Shown one piece after another: positions 34,892 through 59,635 of a DNA stretch of 64,000 bases (position 1 is its first letter; every line of letters starts with the position of its first letter). The stretch is from contig OX344752.2 of the NCBI GenBank assembly GCA_947034885.2, positions 27,594,386-27,658,385 of the forward strand. Reading direction: 5' to 3'. The position numbers were made by a program, and so were the translations under genes. This DNA is from Thuidium tamariscinum. Lineage: Eukaryota > Streptophyta > Bryopsida > Hypnales > Thuidiaceae. Under the pieces are notes generated by a model. It worked only from the letters and a program-made list of their open reading frames with translations, was not told where the DNA came from and did not search any database.

Positions 34892-35455
34892 TGTTGCGGA
34901 CGGCAACTCTAGGATGGAACTAAGATCAGAATCGAGGTGAAACCTCAAACAAGGACAAGATTGGACTAGAAGTGACTCACAAGGGACTCGAACTACAACT
35001 CAAAGTGAGAGAACTAGAAAATGTATTGATAACAGAAAGTGAATACAAGGCTGGGGTACAACTGGTATTGAAGAGAGTGAGGAGCAACGGCCCTCAACTC
35101 TCTACTTATACTAGATTTATGGAAACTTCCGGAGTAAGGTCCTAGAGACCTTAGGAAGCACCTAGAGACCTTAGGAAGCACCTATGGGACCTTTCGGAAG
35201 CTTATGGAAGCTTCCGAAGGCATCTAGACTCGGATGGAAGCTTTCGGAAGTTTGTGGAAGCTTTCGGAAACTAAGAGAACTATACGGAAGCTTGTAGAAG
35301 CTTCCGAAAACTATTGGAAAGTTCTAGATACTAGTCGAAGGTTTTGGAACCTTCTAGAAGTTACTCTAAACTATTAACCACTAATACTATACCATTATAG
35401 GTCTTACGGGAATCTGTAGAGTGTGGATGAAGTTCGGTATGGCACGTCCGTGACA
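34892..35455 (-). repeat. 3' LTR of the gypsy element
   Basis: Starts tgttgcgg and ends cgtgaca on the plus strand. It matches the right LTR throughout but is shorter, mainly because it has fewer copies of the ggaagctt unit and lacks an 8-bp segment near 34975. Phased nGAAn arrays lie at 35191-35363 and a TATA box at 35102-35110 (minus strand). The LTRs remain highly similar, mostly differing by transitions. Confidence 0.95.
35191..35363 (-). promoter_or_regulatory. Phased heat-shock-element-like array in 3' LTR
   Basis: Repeated alternating GAA and TTC trinucleotides at 5-bp spacing, for example GGAAGCTTATGGAAGCTTCC. This is the left-LTR counterpart of the array at 41341-41560 and is shorter. 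Confidence 0.6.
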
Positions 35456-35458
35456 TTA

Positions 35459-35468
35459 CCCCCCCTTC
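35459..35468 (-). other. Polypurine tract
   Basis: Read on the minus strand, GAAGGGGGGG followed by TAA directly abuts the 3' LTR (TGTCACGG). This is the expected plus-strand DNA primer site. Confidence 0.85.
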
Positions 35469-35986: not shown

Positions 35987-36568
35987 TCAAACGTTTCTTG
36001 GTTTTTGAGGATATTGCCGATGGAACTCCTGAATCATTTCAGGGGCATTCTCAAGGTTTGAGGCAGGTTCCCAGGTCCTTTCGCTGACGTCATAGCCCTG
36101 CCAATGCACAAGATATTCGAGTCGTCGACGGTGAATGCGAGAGTCAAGAATCTCCGAGACTTCAAATTCTTCGTCACCTTCAATTTCTATCGGTGGAGGA
36201 GGTTCTTGAACCCTGTCTGGTAGTGTTGACTCCTTATACGGCTCAAGGAGAGAGACGTGAAACATAGGATGGATCTTCATAGAAGCGGGTAACTCCAATC
36301 GGTAAGCTACCTTGTTGATTTGTTTGACCACTAGAAATGGTCCAAGGCGACGGTAGTCGAGGTTGTCAGATGGACGTTGAGTTCTCAAATTTCGACGGAG
36401 TAACCATACCTTGTCTCCAATCGAGATCTTAGGATGTTCCTTGCGAAATTTGTCTGCGTTGGCTTTTTGGTGTTCTTGAGCTTCGATGAGGCTCTGCTTC
36501 ATCTGCTTCTGAATATCAGATAATCGGGTAGCAAGATCCATAGCAGCTAGATTTTTGGAAATGTTCAA
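35987..36568 (-). CDS. Integrase C-terminus plus chromodomain
   Basis: The 193-codon terminal open part of pol. Residues ~45-110 are the integrase C-terminal GPY/F-like region (DYRRLGPFLV..., HPMFHVSLLEPY). Residues ~134-190 form a canonical chromodomain (FEVSEILDSR, LEYLVHWQGYDVSERTWEP), with the aromatic positions expected to bind methylated histone tails (F135, W156, Y159). Such domains direct chromovirus integration to heterochromatin. This portion is free of stops. Confidence 0.93.
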   Translation of the reverse strand: MNISKNLAAMDLATRLSDIQKQMKQSLIEAQEHQKANADKFRKEHPKISIGDKVWLLRRNLRTQRPSDNLDYRRLGPFLVVKQINKVAYRLELPASMKIHPMFHVSLLEPYKESTLPDRVQEPPPPIEIEGDEEFEVSEILDSRIHRRRLEYLVHWQGYDVSERTWEPASNLENAPEMIQEFHRQYPQKPRNV

Positions 36569-36823
36569 GTTGAATTGATCAAATCTTGGATGATGTCCGT
36601 AGTTTGTAAAGAAAGGAGTCTGTTGGGTAGACCCTTATAACGTATTGTTGTAAGCAAACTCGGCAAGCGGCAACAAGTCCACTCAATTATCTTGATGGTA
36701 GTTGATGGTACATCGCAGGTACTACTCCAATACTTAATTGATGTGCTCGGTTTGGCCATCGGTCTGAAGATGGTATGTTGAGGATAACTTGATCTCGACG
36801 CTTAGAATCTTGAATAGAGACTG

Positions 36824-37261
36824 CTAGAACTTGGATGTGAATTGTGTTCCGCGATCAGAGATGATGTCGTTAGGTAAGCCATGAAGTTTGTAGATGTTAT
36901 CTACAAATAGTCTTGTTGTTTCTTCGCCGCTTACAGTCTTGTGGCACAGAATGAAGTGTGCCATCTTAGTGAGCCGATCAACAACAACGAAGATGGAGTC
37001 AAAGGTCTTGGATAGTGGAAGGTCCATAATGAAGTCCATAGATATGGATGTCCATGGGGTTTCTGGAATCGGTAGCGGTTGAAGTAACCCGTATGGTCGA
37101 TGACGAAGGATCTTGGATCTAGAGCAGGTGTCACATGTTGTGACGTAGTCTTTCACGATTTTCCACATTTGTGGCCACCAAAAGTCTCTGGATATCAGCT
37201 CCATGGTCTTGTTGTAACCAAAGTGTCCTGCCGATGGAAAGTTGTGTCGAGACTGGAGCAC
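36824..37261 (-). CDS. Integrase zinc finger and catalytic core portion of pol
   Basis: H2C2 zinc finger (H..GHFGYNKT...TCDTC), then the core with the first catalytic Asp in MDFIMDLP and the second in SDRGTQF. The third acidic residue follows in the same frame past a TAG (36824-36826), in a QTDGQTE motif near 36745-36765. Three further stops occur before the C-terminal domain. Confidence 0.9.
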   Translation of the reverse strand: MLQSRHNFPSAGHFGYNKTMELISRDFWWPQMWKIVKDYVTTCDTCSRSKILRHRPYGLLQPLPIPETPWTSISMDFIMDLPLSKTFDSIFVVVDRLTKMAHFILCHKTVSGEETTRLFVDNIYKLHGLPNDIISDRGTQFTSKF

Positions 37262-37300
37262 TCGGAGTCGACATGGGCCTTCAGGGACATAAAGTAAGTC

Positions 37301-38320
37301 CTAGTAGTATAATAGCCCATCTCGGAATTGGAATCTTGGATCAACATCATCTCGAGGGGTTTCACGCGATCTGGGAATCCGTGAACTGGAAGTAGTTTGA
37401 TTCGGGGATTCCGAATCTATAACCTCTGAATCAGGGACTTGAGAGTCCGGACTTGGAAATTCTCCAGAATTGGAGATGTCAGCATTGTTCTTGAATTTCA
37501 AGGTCAATGGATCGGATTGTAAACTTACTCGGATATCTTGGAGAAAAGATGCATCCGCCGAAGTTGTGGTGCACACAGTCTTCAGCTGAAGTTGCTGAGG
37601 CTTGATAAGGATAGTCTTTTGTTGGTCATAAGCTGCATTTCCTTCCTTGGGTGCAAGGTATGCTCGTCGGGAAAGAGTGTCGGACCGGATTTGCTGGGAA
37701 CCAGGACGGTATGTGATAACGAAGTTGAAGCGCGAAAGCGAAATACTCCAACGGGCTTGTCGTCGATTCAATACTTTGGCAGATATGAAGTACTCAAGGT
37801 TCTTGTGATTGGTATAAACCGTGACTGGATGTTGAGCTCCTTCGAGAAAATGATGCCATTCTTGAAACGAGTCAACAATGGCTAAAAGCTCCTTGTCATG
37901 AATCTCATAATTGATCTCAGCAGCAGTAAATTTTCGCGAGTGAAACGCGATAGGATGGAGGCGTCCGTCTTGGTCGGATTGTGAAAGGACCCCTCCAAGG
38001 GCAAAGTCAGAAGCATCCGTTTCTAAGAAGAACGGCTTTTGAAAGTCAGGATGCGTCAAAATAGACGCTGTTGTAAACGCCTTCTTCAGGGCTTCAAATG
38101 CTTGGTCTGCTTCATCATTCCACTCGAGCTTGTTTTTGCAAGTCAATCGGGTCAACGGAGCAACAATCTTGGAATAGTTTTGGATGAAGATTCGGTACAA
38201 GTTTGCAAAACCGAGGAAACATTGTACGTCTCGAATGGTAGTCGGTTTCTTCCAATCGATGACTGTTTGAATCTTCTTTGGATCCATGGATAGACCCTCT
38301 CCAGATGTGATATAGCCCAA
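37301..38320 (-). CDS. RNase H portion of pol
   Basis: 339 codons in the same frame as the RT. It contains the RT thumb/connection (VEFLGY.. just upstream, CFLGFANLYR), the RNase H motif FLETDASDFALGGVLSQ, and the tether to integrase. A position usually Asp in the TDHKNLEYF motif is Asn here. The last ~100 residues are a Ser/Pro-rich linker leading to the integrase zinc finger. It stops at TAG 37301-37303. Confidence 0.9.
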   Translation of the reverse strand: MGYITSGEGLSMDPKKIQTVIDWKKPTTIRDVQCFLGFANLYRIFIQNYSKIVAPLTRLTCKNKLEWNDEADQAFEALKKAFTTASILTHPDFQKPFFLETDASDFALGGVLSQSDQDGRLHPIAFHSRKFTAAEINYEIHDKELLAIVDSFQEWHHFLEGAQHPVTVYTNHKNLEYFISAKVLNRRQARWSISLSRFNFVITYRPGSQQIRSDTLSRRAYLAPKEGNAAYDQQKTILIKPQQLQLKTVCTTTSADASFLQDIRVSLQSDPLTLKFKNNADISNSGEFPSPDSQVPDSEVIDSESPNQTTSSSRIPRSRETPRDDVDPRFQFRDGLLYY

Positions 38321-38329
38321 GAATTCGAC

Positions 38330-39634
38330 TTAGGGTTGGTGGAAGACGCACTTCTCTATCTTGGCATATAGTCCAGCAGTGCGTAGTTTCTCCAATATCA
38401 GTCGGACATGGTTGATGTGATCTTCTTCGTTTTTGGAAAAAATCAATATGTTGTCGAGATAACAGACAACAAAATCGTCTAGAAACTCTCGAAATACATC
38501 ATTCATCAAGTATTGGAAGATGGCAGGTGCGTTGGTAAGACCAAAAGGCATGACATTATATTCAAAGTGTCCATACCTAGTTCGGAACGCTGTCTTCCAT
38601 TCGTCACCTTCTTTGATACGTACTAGGTTGTACGCTCCACGAAGATCGATCTTGGTGTAAATCTTTACTTGTCCAAGTTGGTCAAGAAGTCCTGAGATAA
38701 GAGACAATGGATATCGATTCTTGATTGTGACCTTGTTTAGTCCATGATAGTCCACGCACATCCGAAGGGAGCCATCTTTCTTCTTGACAAATAGGATGGG
38801 AGCTCCAGCAGGTGACTTAGAATGTCGGATGAAGTTCTTTGCCAGATTTTCATCAAGATAATCTCGTAATACGGCAAGCTCGTTTTGGGAAAGACTGTAG
38901 ATTGGACCAAATGGAGGTTGCGCACCTTCTTGGAGTTCGATGCCACAATCATACGGTCGATGTGGAGGAAGTGTATCAGCGTTCTTCTTTTCAAATACGT
39001 CTCGATACTCCTCGTATTCTGTTGGTAACTTAGTTGATTCTTGAATGTGTTGAGATGTCGGGGTTGCGTAAATCGCAAATATTTTCCCTTTCTTGGCAGC
39101 TCTCATAAACGCTCGGGCACCGACCATCAATGGAACTTTAACCTTGGACTCTTGGATTTGAAGAGAACGTGGTTTTGGAATAGTTCTAGGGTGTTTAGAT
39201 GAAATATGAGAAACTACGGTTTGATATGTTAGCTTTTGCTTTTTCCAATCTATATCTGGATTGATCATTTCTAACCAAGAGAGGCCTAAGATGAGAGGAT
39301 TAGAAGGAGAACTAATAATATTGAATACGATAGTACTTCGGTGCCCTTCTAAGATAATGTCTAAGGGTTTAGTTTCATGAGTGACATCTCCTGAGATCAA
39401 GGGTCTACCATCGATAACCTCTACCACTACAAGGTATTTTTTACGGACTATAGGAAGATTATGGCGTTTTACAAGGTCTCTATCAATGAAGCAAGTAGAG
39501 GCTCCAGAATCTAACAAGGCTTTAACCTTTATGCTATGTGGATGAAAATCTATTTTAAGAGGGATATTAAAACAACGAGAAGGTTCAGAAGATAAGATAG
39601 GACCTGATGATGTGGCAACACTTGTCAGCCGCAC
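38330..39634 (-). CDS. Protease and reverse transcriptase portion of pol
   Basis: 434 codons. The aspartic protease motif LLDSGAS is at residues 41-46, followed by the flap and ILGLSWL signature. RT runs from ~223 with SPAGAPILFVKKKDGSLR, the CVDY...LNK box, and MPFGLTNAPAIFQ. The catalytic motif YLDN lies at residues 392-395, with the second Asp lost. The frame is cut by TAA at 38330 just before the conserved VEFLGY motif. Confidence 0.92.
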   Translation of the reverse strand: MRLTSVATSSGPILSSEPSRCFNIPLKIDFHPHSIKVKALLDSGASTCFIDRDLVKRHNLPIVRKKYLVVVEVIDGRPLISGDVTHETKPLDIILEGHRSTIVFNIISSPSNPLILGLSWLEMINPDIDWKKQKLTYQTVVSHISSKHPRTIPKPRSLQIQESKVKVPLMVGARAFMRAAKKGKIFAIYATPTSQHIQESTKLPTEYEEYRDVFEKKNADTLPPHRPYDCGIELQEGAQPPFGPIYSLSQNELAVLRDYLDENLAKNFIRHSKSPAGAPILFVKKKDGSLRMCVDYHGLNKVTIKNRYPLSLISGLLDQLGQVKIYTKIDLRGAYNLVRIKEGDEWKTAFRTRYGHFEYNVMPFGLTNAPAIFQYLMNDVFREFLDDFVVCYLDNILIFSKNEEDHINHVRLILEKLRTAGLYAKIEKCVFHQP

Positions 39635-39639
39635 GGTCC

Positions 39640-40659
39640 CTAATGTGATTGGTTGTTGTCGTTTTCCGACTCGTTTTCTTCATGTCTTGTCTCCAAACTA
39701 TTTGACGTGCTTCGAAATTTGTACGATTTTGGTCCTTGAATTTTCATAGGGCAGTTCTTCACGGCGTGGTCCTTGCCTCCACAATATAAACACAAGTGTT
39801 CCCTACGACGTCGCTCTTTCTCTTCTTCAGTTAACTTCTTAACCCTCGAAGTATCGATTTGCATAGGCTCTGCAATGGAAATACTCGAAGATGTTTGGCG
39901 GAATGAAGCTGCATAATCTGCTCGATATGATCCGAAGAGCAATCGTCGCTCTTGTCGTTACTCGAACAATCGGTTGTTGCAGTCGATTGCTTGAGTAATG
40001 CCTTCTGACAAAGTTGTTGGTTTAGGCAAATTCAACAACAAGGTTTTGATATCGTCACGGAGTCCCCATCGAAACATGGTGATGAGAGCCGTATCGTTCC
40101 AATTGAGGTCACAAGCAAGTTGTTGGAATTCTGCAACGTATGTTGAAGCTGAGCGCGATCGTTGTTGTAGCGTTCGAAGTTTTGTTGTTGCTATAAGGGT
40201 TCGATCTCTTTCTCTAAACGTTCTGTTGAATTCTTCCAAGAATTGATCAAGATTTGCGAGAAGCGGAGAATCCTTCTCTAATAATGACGAAAACCAAGAT
40301 AATGCAGTTCCGACAAGTAACGTTCCAATGAGTCCGATTCTTGTTTCTTCTGTTGAGTATCTATGTGGTTGAAGACGGAAGATAAGTCAAACTTGATTGA
40401 CAAAATCTTGAAGTTTCGTCCGATCTCCGTCAAACTTCTCTAGCAGACTTATTCGAGGTTCTTTTGGCGCTTGTACTACTTGCGGGGCTGGATTTGGTGC
40501 GGGAGCTGAAACTTGAATTGGAGTGTGAATAGCTTGGAGTTGCTCCATGGCATTTCGTAGGTGAGCATTCTCTTGTTGTAGTTGTTGCAGTACGGCAATC
40601 ACATCGTGCATTTGGAGGTTGGGAACGTCACCCATCTGGAGGTTGGAAACGTCACTCAT
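39640..40659 (-). pseudogene. gag: gypsy gag polyprotein
   Basis: One frame with two internal stops (TGA 40387-40389, TAA 39958-39960). The N-terminus has a Gln/Leu-rich coiled coil (residues ~18-45). The retrotransposon gag domain spans about 40450-40000 (SWFSSLL..., FNRTFRERDR..., FQQLACDLNW). A CCHC zinc knuckle C-LY-C-GGKD-H-AVKN-C lies near 39760-39800. The ATG at 40659 gives the usual start. Gag forms the particle and binds element RNA. It ends with TAG at 39640-39642, overlapping pol by ~45 nt in the -1 frame. Confidence 0.92.
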
Positions 40660-41052
40660 CTTGAATTCGATATGCTTAGAGACTCACAAATAAATAAAGT
40701 AGCAGATCTTTGCGTCTTGTACTCTTGGGATGATTACCGGAAGTGAAGACCTCAAAAAATTCAGATAGAACTCCTCGCTTCTATATCGAACGATGATATC
40801 TCTGAGTTCAGTCTTTGGTCTAAAGAGGAATTGTACTTTTAAAACAATTGGACTTGATGAAATAGGAAAACGATTCAAGTCCATATACTATCTCTCATGG
40901 AAGATGACTGTAGAAGAAATATCAACTTAGAAGTAGGTAATCTACAACCTCTAAGATGTCTCGACTCACTAGAGAAGAGGGGTAATCCACACTCTATCTT
41001 CTAAGAGTAGACTCTGATATCAAGAAGGACTAAGAAAGTACTCTCTTCAAAC
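40660..41052 (-). other. 5' leader of the gypsy element with displaced primer-site-like motif
   Basis: Between the 5' LTR and gag. Read on the minus strand, TTGATATCAGAGTCT (41009-41023) resembles the tRNA-iMet-type plant primer site (TGGTATCAGAGC) but is imperfect and ~30 nt from the LTR edge instead of adjacent. The bases directly next to the LTR (GTTTGAAGAG) match no primer I recognise. Confidence 0.45.
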
Positions 41053-41270
41053 TGTTGCGAACGGCAACTCTGAGATGGAACCAAGATCAGAATCGAGGTG
41101 AAACCTCAAACAAGGACAAGATTGAACTAGAAGTGAGGGGATTCCTCACAAGGGACTCGAACTACAACTCAAAGTGAGAGAACTAGAAAATGTATTGATA
41201 ACAGGAAGTGAATACAAGGCTGGGGTACAACTGGTGTTGAAGAGAGTGAGGAGCAACGGCCCTCAACTCT

Positions 41271-41279
41271 CTACTTATA
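41271..41279 (-). promoter_or_regulatory. LTR TATA box
   Basis: TATAAGTAG on the minus strand, conserved in both LTRs (35102-35110 in the other). It is followed ~30 nt downstream by a GC-rich then CT-rich leader, suiting a transcription start inside the LTR. Confidence 0.65.
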
Positions 41280-41340
41280 CTAGATTTATGGAAACTTCCG
41301 GAGTAAGGTCCTAGAGACCTTAGGAAACACCTATGGGACC

Positions 41341-41560
41341 TTCCGGAAGCTTATGGAAGCTTCCGAAATCTAAGAAGGTCAAGCGAAACCTTCCGGAAGC
41401 TTATGGAAGCTTCCGGAGGCATCTAGACTCGGATGGAAGCTTCTGGAAGTTTGTGGAAGCTTTCGGAAACTAAGAGAACTATACGGAAGCTTGTAGAAGC
41501 TTCCGAAAACTATTGGAAAGTTCTAGATACTAGTCGAAGGTTTTGGAACCTTTTAGAAGT
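41341..41560 (-). promoter_or_regulatory. Phased heat-shock-element array in 5' LTR
   Basis: Alternating GAA and TTC pentamers at 5-bp phase: TTC-cg-GAA-gc-TTA-tg-GAA-gc-TTC at 41341-41367 and again at 41391-41419; GAA-gc-TTC-tg-GAA followed by further phased units at 41436-41469; and a weaker phased run at 41515-41557. Heat-shock factors bind contiguous inverted nGAAn units. The array ends ~60 bp upstream of the TATA box in transcription direction. Confidence 0.65.
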
Positions 41561-41654
41561 TACTCTAAACTATTAACCACTAATACTATACCATTATAAG
41601 TCTTACGGGAATCCGTAGAGTGTGGATGAAGTTCGGTATGGCACGTCCGTGACA

Positions 41655-43208
41655 GAATGTAGTCATGTAGATGTTGTGCAAGACAAATTGTGGGCACCTT
41701 TGGAATAAAGTGTACACAACCAAGTTCTACTACTTCTGTCAATAAATCCTAATGGATGTCTAACCTACGTGTAATTCACTTATGCCTTTCAAGCAATGAA
41801 TCTTGTTAATTTTCCTACTCCTAATTGGTCCAATTTGCAATTGCTTGTTTGAAATAACTTCATCCAAATGTTTTGGCTGGATTTGGCTATGACAGTCCAA
41901 ACTAAGGTATGCTAAATTGGTAATCAAGAAAAAAGTGAGTTAGAACAAGTTGTAGAGCTTGCTTTGGTCTTTCCAAAATGATAAAGAAATCTATGTTTAA
42001 TCTAATTTCCTAATAGATAATTGTGGATAAAGTTTCACTCCAAACTAACTTTTAGAACTTCCTTCATCGATCACAAATGTTCTCACTGTCAAAATTGAGT
42101 GTAACTTTTCTAGTTATTTTCTATTTTTTAATCTCTAATGAAATCTAAAGTTTAATTGATTTGATCAATTCTAGTTGACTTTCATCCAATTGATCACTAC
42201 TTTTGGCTAAAACTTCATTCTACTCTAACTCCTTCACTATTTGATCAATTTGTAAATTAATTAATTTTTATCTCTAAGATATTTTCTAAGATTCTATTCC
42301 TAACTTTTTTTTGGTTTTCTTTTCACCTAATTGGTGAATTATTAACCAATTCTTACTATTTTGTTGAAATACCTAAAAATATGAATTGATTTTTATCTTA
42401 AAAAAAGTCTAATTTTGCCTTGATAAAAGTAAAAACCTTGAACTTTAACTTTTGGATAAATGTGAATTTTTTGTGGCAAATTTCGACCATTGTTCAGTTC
42501 ATCAAAATTTTATCCATTTTAAACTCTTTTTACCTAAGCTTGTCAAATTCACTTGATTTTTGACCCTTCAACTTATCCCTTTTGTCAAGATTAAATTCCT
42601 TATTTGGATCTTTGGATAAAGTTAACTATGAGTAAATTTTGACCATTAACTAGTTTATTAAAATTTACCTATTAATTACTTTCCCTTGGAATACTTTTGT
42701 ATTTTGACAGAACTTTTACTTTCAATCAAAATTCTAAATTTCTTTTCAAAATTACTTCAAAATAAATTCTAATTTATCATCCAATTTTGTAGATAATATT
42801 GTTCAATTATAAATTCTAAGATTCTTGTCCAATCTTTGGATTTAATATTGTTTGAAAAGCTAATTAAACTAACTAACTACTTGTACTTCTAAATTGTAAA
42901 TTTCTACTAGTTATACATGTGCAATTTTAAATTGAGTGTCAATGACTAATAGCTAATCCTACTTAAATGAAATTATAGAAAAAATGAAAAAGAAAGGAAA
43001 ATTTCATAAACTAACCTCCATCATGACTACTTCAAGACCTCTGTGTATTGCCAAAACTTCCTATAATGTGCTAGTTCCACTTCCACTTCGATAATTTTGC
43101 ATTTGAATGTCGTATTTGGTATTCTCATTCAACACCTTGATTGTCCATATATCCCTTCAATGTTTCATCTTTTTCCTTCTACCTTCTTTTTAGATTTTTC
43201 TTTATCTT
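41655..43208. other. A+T-rich stretch, no gene
   Basis: No gene. 42050-42950 is pyrimidine-biased and resembles 33200-34370 in phrase content (gttgactttcatccaatt, ttgaccatta..agttca), suggesting diverged copies of one old repeat on either side of the gypsy element. Confidence 0.5.
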
Positions 43209-43949
43209 TTAATCCCTAAAGCCCTAAGCTATATTTTTTGGCAACATAATAATTTTGGGCAACTCACTACAAATGGAGTTATTATTTTATTTTCCTTTAA
43301 AATTTTCACACAAAATGTGTCCAAGAAGTAGCTTTAAGGTCCAATAATTTTCATAACTTTTGACTTTGTTGTTAAAAAGTTATGGCATGATATATGATTT
43401 TTTTGCTCAGCGAGCAACTTGGGCAGCTGAAAAAACTTCTATAAATTTTTTTTAAAAAGAATTGAAATTTCAAATTGGTTCTTTAGGTTTACATAGACAT
43501 AGGATGATAGGAAGCCTTGAATCCTTCCATTTGGATTAATGAATCAAAAGTTATGAGGAATTTTAGTTTGTGGGTAGGTATGGTTTTCAAAGACTCCATA
43601 CCTACCATCGAACAAAAATTTCTCATAACTTTTGATTCCTTAATCAAAATGGAAGGATTCAAGGCTTTCCATGTATGTATAAATCTAAAAAATCAATTTG
43701 AAATTTCAATTAAAAAAAATTATGTTTTTTCAGCTGCCTAGGCTATCCACCAAGCAAAAAAAATTACATATCATGCTATAACTTTTTAACCACGGTCAAA
43801 AGTTATGAAAACTATTGGGCCTTAGAACTATTCTTTGGACACATCTTGCATGAAAATTTCAAAGAAAAATAAATAAAAACTCCATTCATAGTGAACTGTC
43901 CAAAATTGCTATGTTACCAAAAAACGCAGCTCATGGCTTTAGGGGTTAA
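43209..43949. mobile_element. Palindromic copy (e) of the TTAACCCCTAAA family
   Basis: Left arm 43209-~43580 and right arm ~43590-43949 are inverted complements over ~360 bp. Each starts at a family terminus (TTAATCCCTAAAGCC and, inverted, TTAACCCCTAAAGCC). Both arms correspond to the left half of MITE copies a-c, so this copy is a head-to-head duplication of the left half rather than a full MITE. The hinge is at gtaggtatgg..ccatacctac near 43573-43607. TTAA lies at each edge. Confidence 0.85.
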
Positions 43950-45174
43950 ACTCCTTTATTTTCTTTTCAATGGGTTTCCAAAGTCAAAACATAAAATATC
44001 CTAATATAATCTAATTTCAAAATTAATTGCTAAATGGCTTTTAAAGTCAAATCCAACTACAACTAAGATTTTTAAATTTTTCTCTACTTTAGTAAACCTC
44101 TAAAACTCCTAAGTCAAAGTATTATTGTATTTGTCTTTTCTACTTGTTGTGCTACTTGTCTTTTATCAAATTCAAGAAAAGGTTATAAAAGTCAACGTGG
44201 GCCAAGGGATCCATTCCCCTCTTTTTTTCCTTCCTTCTAAACCTCAAAGGGTGTCTCCTACTTTTTTAATCTTTGAGTTTTAGTGTTGGAAATTGAAATT
44301 GAGTGAGTGCACATATAATACCCAAAGTTTTGGCAAGGTAAATAACATCCAGCATTGGAGGGTGAAGGAAATCTAATTTGTACAAGGCTTTGATGAAGTA
44401 GAATAGCTCAATGGTTGACTATTATAACACTTAGTTTGGTTGAGTAGCTGTTGGGCTTGACTCCCAAGCTTTGCTTTCCAAATCTAAAATTTTAGCACTT
44501 AGCCTTAGTATATGGCTTCTTAGCTTGTTTTGTCAAATATAAAATTTTAGTATTTAGACCTAGATGTCGTTCCCTGGCCTTACTTTGTCAAATCTAAAAT
44601 TTTAGCACTTAGCCCTAATTACCTAACTCTTTGGCTTCCTTATCAAATCTGAAATTTTATCATTCAAGCTCTAGCCTAAAATTAGAGGACCCTAACTACT
44701 TTAACTATCCTTTTTTGATTCTCTGTATTTTAGAGAATTAAATTCCCAAGGAAAATTAACATTGAGTGTATTCCCTCCCAATTTGTCTAATAAAAACTTA
44801 CACTTGATGTTCAAATTTCACAAAAAAAAAAAAAATTGGGGCCCAATGGGCATCATCCCAATGATTTTGAATTGTTATGTATGTATGTGAAAATCATAGT
44901 GACTGAGTTAGAGAGTGACTATTTGACCCTGTCAAGTTGTATGAGCTGGCTTGTGGACTGTACCATTCAATGATTGTACCAATCCAATGGGTAGCAAACC
45001 CTACTATTGTCGCTAGTACTATCTGCAATACTAGCTAAGGACTAACGGCTATTGGTTGTGGTACTGGCTCTTGATCGGTTTAATATTTTATCAATTGTTT
45101 AATTCAACCTAGTTATTGCTTGCCACTAGTTGCAACCAAACTTTTGGGTCTTTCTTGGGACCCTTTAATGCAAA
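43950..45174. other. A+T-rich stretch with 55-bp tandem repeat, no gene
   Basis: No supported gene. It contains the tandem repeat listed next and a poly-A tract at 44821-44834. Confidence 0.5.
44467..44690 (+). repeat. ~55-bp tandem repeat, four units
   Basis: The marker caaatctaaaattttagcac recurs at about 44480, 44535, 44590 and 44644, each followed by tagncctag-like and ggctt words. The spacing is regular (54-55 bp). Confidence 0.8.
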
Positions 45175-49069: not shown

Positions 49070-49880
49070 CTAGAATATATTCTCCCTCCGTATTTCCCTT
49101 GCATTGGGAAGCTGCCTCCCACTGTCCTCTGAAATCATCTGAGGCAGACGTAGAGCCTCGTAGTCATTGTCCATTCCTCGCTCGAACAAGATAGGATAAT
49201 TGATATCCTCCTCAGAGTTGTCGACGCGCTTCCCTCTAATTTCTCTTCGTAGGACAACTCTCCATCCGGGCAACTCAGGAACGTCACTAAAGAATACCTG
49301 TTCACAGTGCTTTGGAAAAGCGAAGGAGTCCTTCCCGAAACGCTCAGAAGACCGGAAATTCGCTATTGTGAAGCCCCACTTGTCCTTCTTGACTGTTGCA
49401 TTGGGTCCACGGTAGTTTGCTTTGACCCATCTGCAGACGAAGACGACGACGCATGTTCCTCGGTAGTCCAACTCAACTATCTCTTCCAATTCACCCACAT
49501 ACTCCACTTCTGCTTCGACAAGGTTCTTGTCCTTCGCACTTGCCTGCCATGGCCTAGTGAACGTTGCCGCCACGCCACTGTCTCGTGTCGCCAAAGCCCT
49601 CTCGTAACTGGCCACTCGAAATCGACTTCCAAAAGCCCATATGCTCCGGAATTTTCTACATTTTAAATTAGGAGGTACTGATAGGTCGATGACGGTGCTG
49701 GGAAGCTCCATTCCGCTTGCCAGTGATGACTTCACATCTTCCTCTAACCAATTGGCGAAGTCAGGGAAGTGCATTAAATTCCCTGGAAGAGGAGGTCCTC
49801 GCCGACTTCTTCTGTGAGGATGCTGTCTACGCCATATTTTCCTCTGCTCCTGCCGTTCAACCTTCTCTTGTTCGTAACGT
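49070..49880 (-). CDS. tnp2 terminal exon: DUF4216
   Basis: Joins in phase 2 after a GATGTAG acceptor. A basic, Arg-rich helix (~30 residues) leads into FPDFANWLEE, then DUF4216: FGSRFRVASYE, VEYVGELEEIVELDYRG, VFVCRWVKANYRG, KKDKWGFTIANF, SFAFPKHCEQVFFSDVP and WRVVLRRE. The acidic C-terminus ends at a stop at 49070-49072. Length and order match CACTA transposases. Confidence 0.85.
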
Positions 49881-50326
49881 CTACATCATGAGAAACAATA
49901 TGTTATGCATTTGCGATTGAAAGAAAAAGTCAGAAGTAGCAGTACAACGTGGAGCGCATGTTCCCCTGAACATGGACGACATCAGGTCGGAGGACATTAA
50001 CGAAGAGCCTACCATTTCTGCAGGCTTGCCCAATAGTCATGCACCCTCTGAGGGCATTTGCAGACCTCACTTTCCGTATGACATGCTACAAGTACTTCGG
50101 TCTATTACTTGTTATCCTTATTACACATGTTGTCATGACACTCCGTCTTCGTCTAGGAGCACTTCTGAAAAGCACTTCCTCTCTCATATGGGCAAGACTG
50201 CGTTCTCTATTGTCTTTTAGAAAATGCAGCGTCTATACAATGCAGGCGCTCATGTGGAAGTGTCCTTCTCACAATCGGCTTTCATGAAAGCGAAGAAGTG
50301 AACATAGTGGTTCGAGGCGGACTTAC

Positions 50327-51225
50327 AGTCGGTGACCTTCACAGTTGCCAGACGTGTCTATGACAAAATCGTGGAGAAGCTGCCTCCGCTCCTCAGTTAA
50401 TGTCCTCGATATTCCCTGACCCTCTAATATTTCGTCCGCCATCGTAGGATCCTCCTGCGAATCCCAAACCTTGGTTCTGGTATAAGTATAATTAGCCATG
50501 TACTTTGTCGCATAACCTACTGCTTCTTGTAGCTCATAACTGGCTGCCATACTTCCTTCCGGTTTTGCTAAATTCTTCACTGCACTCTTCAGCCCCTTAT
50601 AGTATCGCTCGTATGGATACATCCAACGACTGTGCACTGGGCCGCAAATGAAAACTTCCTACACAATATGGTAAGGCAAGTGCATCATGATTGTGAACGT
50701 TGAGGGTGGTAGTTGTTTCTCCAGCACGACCATCGTCTCTACGACGTCTTCCAGCAGCTGGTTTTTGGAGTCCTCACTGATGACTTTGTCGCAGACTCTC
50801 TGAAACACCCTACTGAGTTTTATGATAGCACATGCCAACTCCTGGTTTTCAATGTTCCTGACGCACAATGGAAGGATTTGCTGCATAATGATGTGAAAAT
50901 CATGCGACTTCAAGCCTTGAAGCTTCCCCTGCTCAATTCGACGTCGTATATTAGACGCATAACGACTAGGCATTTTCAGTTCCCGCAGTGTCTGGAAGAA
51001 ACACTCCCTGTCACGTTTCGAGAGAACATATTCCGCATCTGCCATGATGAACTTCTCACTACCGGGAAAGGTCTCTCGAAGCCAAAGGTGCTCACGCAAA
51101 TTCCGACCCTGCAAATTCAACCGCACTGCTGGGGTGTCCTTGTCACCGAGAAGGAAATTCAACAGGGTCTCACAAATATTCTTCTCGCAGTGCATCACAT
51201 CCAACGTATGCCTGCAAAGAAGATC
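50327..51225 (-). CDS. tnp2 exon: end of TNP2 core and DUF4218
   Basis: Begins DLLCRHTLDVMHCEKNICET, a hallmark of plant TNP2. It continues through LKSHDFHIIMQQILPLCVR and HLPYHIV, then after a TAG (50659-50661) in the same frame FICGPVHSRWMYPYERYY..LK and ARPEGS-like residues, which are DUF4218 signatures. It ends at a GTAAGT donor after CGACT (phase 2). Confidence 0.88.
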
Positions 51226-52918
51226 CTGCAAGACAAATACAAGTAATCGTCAGAAACTCCCTTCGTCACTTCAAAGACACACATAAAACATAGGAATAGA
51301 AGATATTGGGTTCAGAGCACCGAAGCCTGCGGCCTCATATGTGCCTTCTCATGGTGACAAGTACCGCATGTCATTCCGAACCACACTATGACTGCTGTGC
51401 TTCACTGATGTCCCTTCAAGTCGCGCTATTTCGAGAGAGCGTTCCATGGAACAAAGCCTGTGAGACGTAGTTAGTGTTCCCTGTGTGAATTCCATGACTA
51501 AGATTAAGGAGTCCTTCTGCTGCAGGACGACCTCAAGGACCACTCATCTTCACGTCGACGGTGAACTACTTCTCTTATTAAAGTCCACCGACATGCACAT
51601 GTTTGATGTTCCGGAAAGCGCACTCCATTTGTACTGCGCTGCACGTCATGCACCATGACGAAACAGAGCACTATCGTGCAGACAGGCAGTTGACATTCCT
51701 CTCAGGATGCAGTGAAGCGCACGCTCACTCCCGCAAGTTCTGCATTTCCTTTCTACAAGTCTTTCCTCACTCAGAAGGCAGTGGACGCACATACTTGTCC
51801 TAGAGGACACGCACTGACGGCCGACCCATTGCAAAACACAGTCACCGTCCATGCACTTGAAATCTAGGTATGTGTTGAAAGTATCATTAGTCCTCGCTGC
51901 ACTGTCTCTATCCTCATTGCTTGACAAGCGTCCTCTGGTGACACTGACATGCCAACCCCGATTCAGTGCTTCTGCGTGAATTTGAAAGCTAAAATGTCCG
52001 TGAGCTGCTAATGAAGACGTCAAGAATGACTCAACGTCTCTTGTAGTGCACAATAGCCGTCTTGTCCCTCTATAACTGAAAAGTGTACGAGGTCAATTAC
52101 GCAGAAAACGAAGCTACTGACGACATCCTGCACGTGCCTCTCCTCTACACGCGCTGAACGCTGCGGGACTGCGCGAGTGTATTCTCCGTCATGTTCATGC
52201 CACAGGACACGCAAAGGGCAGTGTCACAGTGCGGGAGACGAATAACGAAACCGGTTTCTTAGCATGCTGCATTCGAAAGTGAGAAGTCCTTCTATGGCAG
52301 CACACTTAGGCGTCTGGATTCTCCGGGAGGTACAGAAAGTCAAACAGTGGCCTCCGAGAGTAGTGTGAAACGCCTACAACGACTTCGAAACCGTTGATGA
52401 AGTGCACTTGCCATATGGAAGCACGTTCCTCTGAACTGCATGAACCAAGACTGGCTGCAGTGAAAACCAATGACATGACGTTCTTCAACCCGATCAGCTT
52501 CTTCCGATACAATCGGTGTGAAGGTCAGTGGCACAGCCTTCCTCTCATTACAGACGCGGCATGGATGGCACTTCCGAGGAAGTCCACTTCTGTCAATACG
52601 TAGTGCGGACCATGAATGAAAGTTAAGCACGAGTTGTATGAGTATTCAGTCCTGCATCCTTCACACCAGCGAAGGCAGAGCACACTTCTGAAATTCTAGG
52701 AACATTTATGCTTACGTTTCGTGCACTGCAAACTTCTACGACTTCCTCGCAAAATTAAGACAGAGTTCATGTGCACCTCGCCTGAAGGCATATGCACTCC
52801 ACTGACACGAAGTTCAGCCACACTCCTCAGACTTCCTATATTGTCAAGCATGACGGTCGTCTTCATTCAGGAAGATGCATTCCTAGACAGACTACTTTAG
52901 TTGACAATGTATCCTTAC
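51226..52918 (-). other. Large tnp2 intron
   Basis: GTAAGG donor to TTGTCTTGCAG acceptor. It holds frames of up to 135 codons on the minus strand (51646-52053) that resemble nothing recognised. Its composition matches the exons and it could hide an insertion. The splice is placed by exact continuity of a conserved motif across it. Confidence 0.65.
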
Positions 52919-54388
52919 CGCCCAATACGGTAATCTGTAGAATATGCTAACACGCTTTACTCCATGCCTCTTGACCGGGTCGGCGGCGGCCTCTTCGACG
53001 CCACCTCCACGAATATATTCCTCGCGTTCCACGCCGTTGGAGTAAATTTCACGACCTATTCGACGTTGCGGTGTACACCGTCTCTCAGGTCCTCCGTTGA
53101 ATGCTCTCCTCGCATTTCTGAATGGATGATGCATTCCTAGAAATCAACGAGTACCCAAATATACCATCTTGTGCAAGAAACCCGAATGCTCCGCTGTGGT
53201 CTGGTCTGCACACACTGGACAACCTTTATAGCCCTTCGTCTGCTGCCTAGACAAAAGTCCATAACCTGGGAAGTCATGAACTAGCCAAATCAACATCGCC
53301 CGCAGAGTGAAATTCCTCTGTCCTGTAGGCTTTGACATATCAGTAGCCGGAATTCCGTCCCACAATTTCAATAAGTCCTGCACTAAGGGCTCAAGGTAAA
53401 TGTCTATCACCTCTACTGTTGGAGCATGTGGCCCAGGTACTAGCAAGACAAGCTTGAGGAAGAAAGTCTTGTTTGTCATCCAAGGAGGCAGGTTGTAAAT
53501 GGCCACAAGAAACGGCCACACGGAGTGCTTGGTCGACTGGTTCCTGTAAGGGTTCACTTCGTCACCTACGAGACCTAAACGGAGATTCGTTGGAATGGCA
53601 GCGAAATCAGGGTACAACTGATTTATGTGCTTCCACTGCTCGCCATCAACGACTGATTTCATCACACCATTTCTTGATCTATTTCTCTGATGAAATGTCA
53701 TGAACTTCGCAACATCAGGGCACTTGAACATTCGACGCAGCTGATCAATTATTGGGAAATACCTCAACACTTTCGAAGGCACTGCACTCGACCCTTCCAT
53801 GTACCTTGACTTGCCACAACCTGGATGGGGGCATGTCGCCAGGTGAGCCTTGTCTCCTCGGAAGAGGACATGTCCATCAGGGCGGCAATGAATTGCTTCA
53901 TGCGCTAGTCCAAGTTTTTTCACCAGTCGACGGACCTCATAAGAAGTACGGGGAAGGCAATTCGATTTTGGAATCAAGTCTTGCGAAAGGAATCTCAGTA
54001 ACTCATCCATGAATGTGTACGGAATACAATACAGGCTACACATTGTGATGAGGATAATTGAAAATTCTAGTCGATTCAGCTTGTACCCTTCGTACAGTGA
54101 CTCAGTGGACTCCCGCACCAATTCCTCGTACGTGGGTCTATGCATGTCGACATCGGCATCTCCATCTACGTCATTCTGTTCACGGCGCGATTCCTCTTCA
54201 ATGTCAGCGTGGATGCTGTCGACCCGTGCAAAGGCATCCCGAACGACACCTGGAACATCCACTGCTGACCTCTGTGGCCACACGAACTCTTGCGGGCCTC
54301 GCCGATTGCCCTCCACTTCGCGGTAATAATCCTCGCCTCCCTCCAACCCCTCATCAATCGGGTTAAGAACGCTATCTCCATTGTCTGT
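52919..54388 (-). CDS. tnp2 exon: Transposase_21 core
   Basis: About 490 codons from the TGTGCAG acceptor. The early part is acidic. Family motifs follow: LPRTSYEVRRLVKKLGL, a CPHPGC zinc pair, VPSKVLRYFPI, LRLGLVGDEVNPY (first catalytic Asp), VAIYNLPPWM, VIDIYLEPLVQ, LVHDFPGYGLLS and KGCPVCAD. After a TGA at 53144 the same frame continues with FLGMHHPFRNARRAFNG and HGVKRVSIFYRLPYW, all family-typical. The donor is GCG/GTAAGG. Confidence 0.88.
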
Positions 54389-54551
54389 CTGCACAAACAG
54401 CGCATTCAATGCATGTGGACATTGCCATTAGTGCTGTAGTCATGAACTGCTCATAGAAAACCTGTCTCACGCTTCCAAACATAGTGCTCTCTACGAATTG
54501 TGCTTCCTCAACTGAAGACCGTGGACAGAAATGAGAGCATCATCCACTCAC

Positions 54552-59271: not shown

Positions 59272-59635
59272 CACTACAACAAAACATGGTAAAAAAAAAC
59301 CGCGCAGGAACTTCCAAAGTGGGTTTTTTTGCCATGAATTTGTGCGCGTCATTCTTTGCGCGTTGCGCGTAGTGGACAACCAACTTTGGCAGAAATTTCC
59401 CACTGCAATTTTTGGAATTAGGAAGCGTGTCATATATCAATGGAAAGGTATTTTGAATACCTTTCCATTGATATATGACACGCTTCCTAATTCCAAAAAT
59501 TGCAGTGGGAAATTTCTGCCAAAGTTGGTTGTCCACTACGCGCAACGCGCAAAGAATGACGCGCACAAATTCATGGCAAAAAAACCCACTTTGGAAGTTC
59601 CTGCGCGGTTTTTTTTACCATGTTTTGTTGTAGTG
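59272..59635. mobile_element. Miniature CACTA element, near-perfect 364-bp palindrome
   Basis: Starts CACTACAACAAAACATGGTA and ends in its exact complement. The left arm 59272-59452 and right arm 59456-59635 differ only by one A in an A-run, and are separated by TTG. It is flanked by perfect 3-bp duplications AAA (59269-59271, 59636-59638), the CACTA hallmark. Both strands therefore encode the same peptide-like frame, which is an artefact. The near identity of the arms implies very recent formation or ongoing arm conversion. Confidence 0.95.

Follow-up and report, generated by a model that had tools for sequence, protein, structure and literature searches.

The U3 regions of a Ty3/gypsy chromovirus in the moss Thuidium tamariscinum carry an array of GAA and TTC words held in one 5-bp phase. 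We consider this array to be probably a heat-shock-element (HSE) enhancer of the retrotransposon promoter; its binding by heat-shock factors (HSFs), its induction by heat and its maintenance by selection are what we infer from sequence. The element lies on the minus strand of the window, the whole 64,000 bp stretch of DNA that was analysed, and its features are listed in Table 1. The phasing of the sites, its reappearance in other family members and in a further group of elements, and the location of the array relative to the promoter were observed and speak for the predicted HSF-bound promoter; the step size of the array was observed as well. Against it stand the absence of the array from the youngest sister family, the two focal-family LTRs, among 15 added by an array-free query, that lack a three-unit site, and the fact that tandem slippage alone can keep a 10-bp phase.

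Table 1. Features of the chromovirus in the window (position 1 is the first letter of the window).
Feature	Position	Strand	Remarks
5′ LTR (right LTR)	41053..41654	-	602 bp, TG...CA in sense
Phased nTTCn/nGAAn array in U3 of 5′ LTR	41335..41564	-	degenerate 10-bp unit
TATA box TATAAGTAGAG of 5′ LTR	41269..41279	-	3′ LTR counterpart at 35100-35110
11 nt of R whose complement is the primer site	41237..41247	-	inferred transcript 5′ end and self-primer
Primer binding site	41040..41050	-	2 nt inside 5′ LTR, complementary to the 5′ region of the element's transcript
gag region	39640..40683	-	separate open frames, CCHC zinc knuckle; by-eye reading only
Protease and reverse transcriptase frame	38330..39679	-	PF08284, PF00078 on 38330-39634
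RNase H frame	37301..38329	-	PF17919, PF17917 on 37301-38320
Integrase zinc-binding and core frame	36824..37300	-	PF17921 above cut-off, PF00665 slightly below; on 36824-37261
Integrase C-terminal part and chromodomain	35987..36634	-	PF24626, PF00385 on 35987-36568
Polypurine tract adjoining 3′ LTR	35456..35468	-	by-eye reading
Corresponding phased array in U3 of 3′ LTR	35181..35365	-	shorter, edges approximate
3′ LTR (left LTR)	34892..35455	-	564 bp

A profile search recovered the gene order protease-reverse transcriptase, RNase H, integrase and chromodomain, which bears out the gypsy chromovirus identity given in the preliminary description. The Ty1/Copia gene order of the ONSEN/COPIA78 type was not found, as RNase H precedes the integrase and there is a chromodomain. 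The coding region is broken into several frames. The cage positions of the chromodomain, assigned by eye without an aligned reference chromodomain, are F, W and Y. The LTRs are flanked by ggatg and gaatg, identical at 4 of 5 bases and a probable worn target-site duplication.

The phase of the array is far beyond chance. Between the left anchor and the TATA box of the right LTR, 24 of 30 GAA/TTC words fall in one 5-bp phase, forming 9 adjacent opposite pairs, 6 step triples and 1 three-unit site, against means of 5.8 in-phase words, 0.46 pairs, 0.02 step triples and 0.01 three-unit sites in 2000 dinucleotide shuffles. None of the 2000 shuffles reached the observed number of in-phase words (maximum 12), of pairs or of step triples, while the single three-unit site was also reached in 18. 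Across 41341-41560, 22/27 words share a phase modulo 5, and TRF reports periods of 20 and 10 for the array of the 5′ LTR. The R-U5 part of the right LTR contains no pair and no triple. Moreover, all 12 of the 10-bp-step triples in the window lie inside the two LTRs. Adjacent pairs counted over 250 bp in 50-bp steps number 8 in the right LTR, 5 in the left and at most 2 outside both. When the rest of the window was cut into 207 tiles of 300 bp, three contiguous units occurred in 2 and four in none. Taken together, the shuffles, the empty R-U5 and the low pair counts outside the LTRs establish the phase as real.

Strict alternation of GAA and TTC, which had also been claimed for the array, is weak in this copy. 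The array consists mostly of TTC in one direction at 10-bp spacing; in sense the unit reads roughly RnAAGnTTCC and recurs from about 285 to about 55 bp before the TATA box. The array had been placed as ending some 60 bp upstream of that box, and its edge at 41341 does lie at about this distance from 41269-41279, with one extra pair nearer, about 11 bp before the TATA box and outside the main array. Each window LTR has one perfect three-unit site. That of the right LTR, GGAAGCTTCTGGAAG, is broken in the left LTR, whose perfect site is another one. The lengths of the two arrays differ as had been noted, though not by a single block: the right LTR has a 50-bp block that is absent from the left, the left has a 20-bp duplication of its own, and the net difference is 30 bp.

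The position of the array relative to the promoter could be judged from the way the element primes itself. In self-priming, the transcript's own 5′ end primes reverse transcription. The stretch of R whose complement forms the primer site begins 32 nt past the start of the TATA box, and transcription is therefore likely to start 32 bp past that box, a position located through the primer site and independently of the TATA box. Between the inferred transcript start and the primer site, 7/8 LTRs from three groups of elements (described below) match over 11-12 nt; the eighth, of element A, matches over 10 nt in an LTR cut 3 nt long. Side checks gave 11 nt for L105 and only 6 for L106. The 11-nt sequences differ between groups i, ii and iii (loci including L087, L089, L091, L093, L095 and L108) yet match within each element, so primer site and transcript start change together. 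Because the self-priming site maps the start, the array would sit in the usual range of an enhancer. A tRNA-Met primer site was also sought by eye about 30 nt inside the element and was set aside, since the self-priming match beside the LTR explains priming better.

Were the array such an enhancer, host HSFs would bind the contiguous and gapped units in U3, some 55-285 bp upstream of the TATA box, each HSF trimer contacting three 5-bp nGAAn units. Heating of the moss would then raise HSF-driven transcription from the start 32 bp past the TATA box. The array would grow and shrink mostly by steps of 10 or 20 bp, adding or removing units of the nGAAnnTTCn type; with such steps the sites would stay in phase while their number varies between copies.

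The genome that contains the window (363 Mb in 19 contigs) was searched for further copies, and the family survey covers this one moss genome. The first LTR query contained the array and gave 48 matches from the 40 of 605 first-look candidates that were scored. Thirty eight stretches were fetched, giving 41 LTR rows together with the two LTRs of the window. Three rows (L036, L040 and L046) were dropped for an anchor with 7 mismatches, two of the three fitting the 10-bp rule given below. The remaining rows are not independent, several being both LTRs of one element. At least three contiguous alternating units were found in 38/38 anchored LTRs, at least four in 26/38 and at least five in 20/38. 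The longest run is seven units, whereas both window LTRs reach only three, and the LTRs hold between 23 and 71 GAA/TTC words each. The window copy has thus decayed in part, most of its sites being of the lower step and gap grades, and the family keeps the array better elsewhere.

Since a query containing the array could miss copies that lack it, two array-free queries were run, one with R-U5 alone, for which 40 of 116 candidates were scored, and one with only the U3 end, for which 40 of 68 were. Fifteen of the 40 R-U5 places were new. A five-unit site lies on the U3 side in 9 of these LTRs, and runs of three or four occur in 4 (L112-L115); L116 and L117 have only two units and no three-unit site. 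Whether related copies lack phased units, the check put forward in the preliminary description, accordingly has a divided answer, with at least three units in 38/38 and 13/15 LTRs and no three-unit site in 2/15. Most family copies, not all, keep the array. The two exceptions are natural array-poor copies: the array is almost gone from L116 (C4:26672440-26672900) and shortened in L117 (C2:21521300-21521760).

Array length changes in a regular manner. Measured between the left anchor and the TATA box, rows with good anchors span 235 to 577 bp and step by 10 bp, one site pair, 30/38 anchored rows being 7 modulo 10. The stretch after the TATA box is 231 bp in 32/38 rows, and that before the array measures 72-75 bp. 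Among places where the array-free queries found both ends, 19/25 have the window's spacing modulo 10. Nine LTR pairs were presumed from distance, two of them about 10-11 kb apart: 3 have equal arrays, 4 differ by 30, 30, 100 and 200 bp, and 2 by 12 and 35 bp, from which it follows that array length changes within elements. At one locus (L044, C1:22965800-22967200) about eighteen tandem copies of a 20-bp unit place 64/71 words in phase, and its presumed partner LTR has an array shorter by 200 bp.

The 10-bp steps, the variation within presumed LTR pairs and the detection of a 10/20-bp repeat by TRF would all be expected of a neutral tandem repeat of 10 or 20 bp, in which a palindromic unit with an AAGCTT core spread in U3 by slippage or unequal exchange and any likeness to HSEs is incidental. 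We regard this as an unlikely account, albeit one to be weighed seriously. Slippage in the 10-bp repeat does explain the step size and the survival of the phase. It fits less well with the 5′ end of the array, which in many copies consists of at least five perfect alternating units with spacers unlike AAGCTT, e.g. GAAGGTTCTAGAACCTTCTAGAA.

The mean profile of the 10-bp unit, built from 30 family copies, bears on both readings. The TTC half is the best kept part (0.99, 1.45 and 1.32 bit), which argues against a neutral repeat. In the GAA half the two A are kept (1.04 and 1.02 bit) and the G, present in 42% of units, is not (0.15 bit). Two positions beyond the GAA/TTC words (0.95 and 0.84 bit) are better kept than this G, as a neutral repeat would have it. 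With TTC and the A positions kept, G not, and two outside positions kept, the average unit is half HSE and half plain 10-bp repeat.

Across the 38 rows, changes other than deamination at A/T sites affect 0.9% of core positions, 5.6% of spacers and 2.9% of R-U5, percentages taken from a gapped alignment of the repeats, a procedure biased towards matching cores. That A/T sites in cores change less than in R-U5 counts against neutrality. Counting all sites, the cores and the 5′ part of U3 outside the array both show 1.0% changes. C-to-T type decay is 3.9% in cores and 3.9% in spacers, as expected for dead copies. Ungapped subsets of three length classes (4/9, 5/5 and 3/4 copies) gave A/T changes in core versus spacer of 2/224 vs 24/356, 4/290 vs 13/415 and 0/126 vs 10/237, with permutation p values of 0.0016, 0.14 and 0.013, the middle one not significant. 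The contrast between core and spacer could in part stem from exchange among units with a core in common, and the data are suggestive only of selection on core positions.

Related elements were identified among 104 matches of a reverse-transcriptase search of the genome, in which group i is the focal family. Group ii, the sister family (L077-L090), has reverse transcriptases 72-74% identical to the focal one. Seven of its elements were examined; the LTR pairs are 99-100% identical in 7/7, the youngest measured, the frames are mostly open, and the group is recently active. Its LTRs contain two adjacent pairs, but no three-unit site, no step triple and no array, a pattern more readily expected if the array were a neutral repeat. 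In group iii, where the reverse transcriptase is 64-69% identical, the LTR is a different one and repeats in tandem a 20-bp unit with a three-unit site inside. This array is present in 5/6 elements (H, I, J, L108 and L109), the sixth, L105, having its U3 missing or replaced, and it ends 42 bp before the TATA box in 3/3 LTRs measured. The double-unit pattern of group iii, allowing up to 3 mismatches, has 114 matches in the genome, many of them overlapping, against 0 for the control. That a second family group carries such an array at the corresponding place counts against neutral spread. Of the more distant elements, L106 (62%) shows a weaker cluster, in which one three-unit site occurs, and L107 (57%) has no recognisable LTR.

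In a midpoint-rooted tree of 42 rows, with six of seven group ii elements and four of group iii, groups i and ii fall together (support 89/89, below the star limit) and group iii lies outside. As the outer group bears the array, it is either old and lost in group ii or gained twice. Searches of viral contigs found no relatives of the element's reverse transcriptase and no group iii array pattern.

HSFs answer several stresses, which lends something to an enhancer serving another factor or stress (e.g. desiccation or ABA, acting via HSFs or unrelated factors) and not heat as such. We think this improbable: HSF trimers are characterised by inverted units at 5-bp spacing, and we know of no other plant factor with such a spacing rule. 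In its favour, the RLG2 family of Physcomitrium patens is reported to be induced by ABA as well as by heat (PMC7466625). A DNA-shape element, in which A/T runs phased at 10 bp bend the DNA or place a nucleosome, would share the 10-bp period, but is very improbable because the A-rich (2, 3) and T-rich (6, 7) positions of each 10-bp unit lie about 4 bp apart, so that A/T steps face both sides of the helix.

To place the predicted HSF sites in the context of the whole genome, perfect five-unit sites were counted. The pattern GAAnnTTCnnGAAnnTTCnnGAA has 78 matches, compared with 23 for a reversed control pattern. LTR matches of the family, with a margin of 350 bp, account for 46 of the 78 (35 of 60 distinct places); when fewer LTR places were used, 28 sites fell in LTRs and 12 close to reverse transcriptases of the family. 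One five-unit site was found upstream of L104, a class I small heat-shock protein gene, and serves as a positive control, the upstream piece holding four three-unit sites. A three-unit site was found in 2/8 upstream pieces of small heat-shock protein genes (8 fetched of 21 HSP20 matches), so strict site counting predicts heat genes imperfectly here. The genome has at least 5 matches to the HSF DNA-binding domain. Its class I small heat-shock protein is 70-78% identical to those of Physcomitrium, 73-76% to Funaria and 56-75% to Ceratodon among the named proteins of the 120 listed, identities that mark the host as a moss and not a flowering plant; several longer flowering-plant proteins among the matches listed score highly at about 50-56% identity.

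The element fits the Tcn1 clade, as compared by published description, in its chromodomain, self-priming, moss host and similarity to frog and lizard elements (PMC6317226). Tcn1-clade chromoviruses of mosses and lycophytes are described as mostly self-primed, with no tRNA primer (PMC6317226, PMC2864245, PMC3350952); common to them and our element are the chromodomain, self-priming, a host that is not a seed plant, vertebrate relatives and perhaps, from the by-eye reading, an aromatic cage. In a protein search with the reverse transcriptase, the matches named to species among the 120 listed of 7954 were frogs and lizards, in line with the reported kinship of Tcn1 to Tf1/sushi. The words 'heat shock' have 0 occurrences in the three Tcn1 papers (PMC6317226, PMC2864245, PMC3350952), which thus describe no HSE under that name. 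Among the papers listed in literature searches on HSEs in gypsy or chromovirus LTRs and on heat in Tcn1 or moss elements, no title or abstract shown mentioned a phased HSE array for a chromovirus LTR.

Heat-responsive LTRs are best described from Copia elements, namely ONSEN/COPIA78 of Arabidopsis, COPIA37, TERESTRA and ROMANIAT5, with HSEs of the 3P, 4P, gap and step classes (PMC5059998, PMC3907296). The nGAAn cluster of ONSEN has been traced to duplication of a two-unit precursor (PMC5059998, PMC3907296). The likeness is that clusters of HSF-type nGAAn units in the LTR are proposed as the driver, and the 4P, 3P, gap and step classes all occur in the moss LTRs. As in ONSEN, a cluster of 3P/4P grade lies upstream of the start (at least three units in 38/38 LTRs, none in 2/15 further ones). 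By these accounts ONSEN and its like are Brassicaceae Copia elements with about four to six units, whereas the element here is a moss chromovirus with 23-71 words in an array that steps by 10 bp. Moreover, heat induction was measured for ONSEN-type elements, whereas for the present array it is predicted. With heat-responsive LTRs already known from ONSEN, what is found here is another form of array in a new lineage, which is most likely heat-responsive.

The preliminary description saw in the array an independent case of heat-responsive design. This is fair relative to the Copia element ONSEN, but Ty3/gypsy elements that respond to heat or carry putative HSEs have already been published. In Physcomitrium patens, heat and ABA are reported to induce the Gypsy family RLG2 strongly and heat shock to repress RLG1 (PMC7466625); RLG2 resembles our element, by its published description, as a Gypsy LTR element of a moss. 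Cryptococcus TCN3 and TCN12 have two and one putative LTR HSEs, respectively, and are mobilised at 37 °C (PMC12810828). RLG2 and TCN3 come nearest to the present case among the papers considered. TCN3 is Ty3/gypsy like the window element, while these fungal elements have few sites and their account describes no phased array. PHRE1 and PHRE2 of moso bamboo are Ty3/Gypsy elements whose LTR promoter has been linked to the heat response (PMC8656106), with TCP, DOF and GATA factors named and the terms 'HSE' and 'nGAAn' absent from the main text. Further heat-linked gypsy elements are tabulated in a review (PMC9780303).

We tentatively propose a wider picture, which we hold to be possible and no stronger, in which these self-primed moss chromoviruses carry an expandable HSF-binding array whose step is usually one site pair and whose copy number tunes the strength of a heat promoter. 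One family would thereby have become the main holder of five-unit HSEs in the host genome, from which neighbouring genes could readily draw heat enhancers, and the trait would either be ancestral to two groups, with loss in the most recently active group, or have arisen twice. If so, a moss Ty3/gypsy chromovirus took up HSEs independently of the Copia elements of flowering plants, and on a scale, tens of phased words, beyond that reported for ONSEN. The varied array lengths and the array-less sister family would then form a natural dose series relating HSE number and grade to retrotransposon activity, and it could be tested whether such LTRs have handed a heat response to moss genes.

Lastly, self-comparison of the window revealed two self-inverted, hairpin-like repeats, one near-perfect (59272-59635, 98.6%) and one imperfect (43208-43950, 80%). 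The minus strand at 49070-54409 contains frames matching Transposase_21 (53144-54409), DUF4216 and DUF4218, the last two slightly below the Pfam cut-off, which we take to be the remnant of a CACTA-type DNA transposon.
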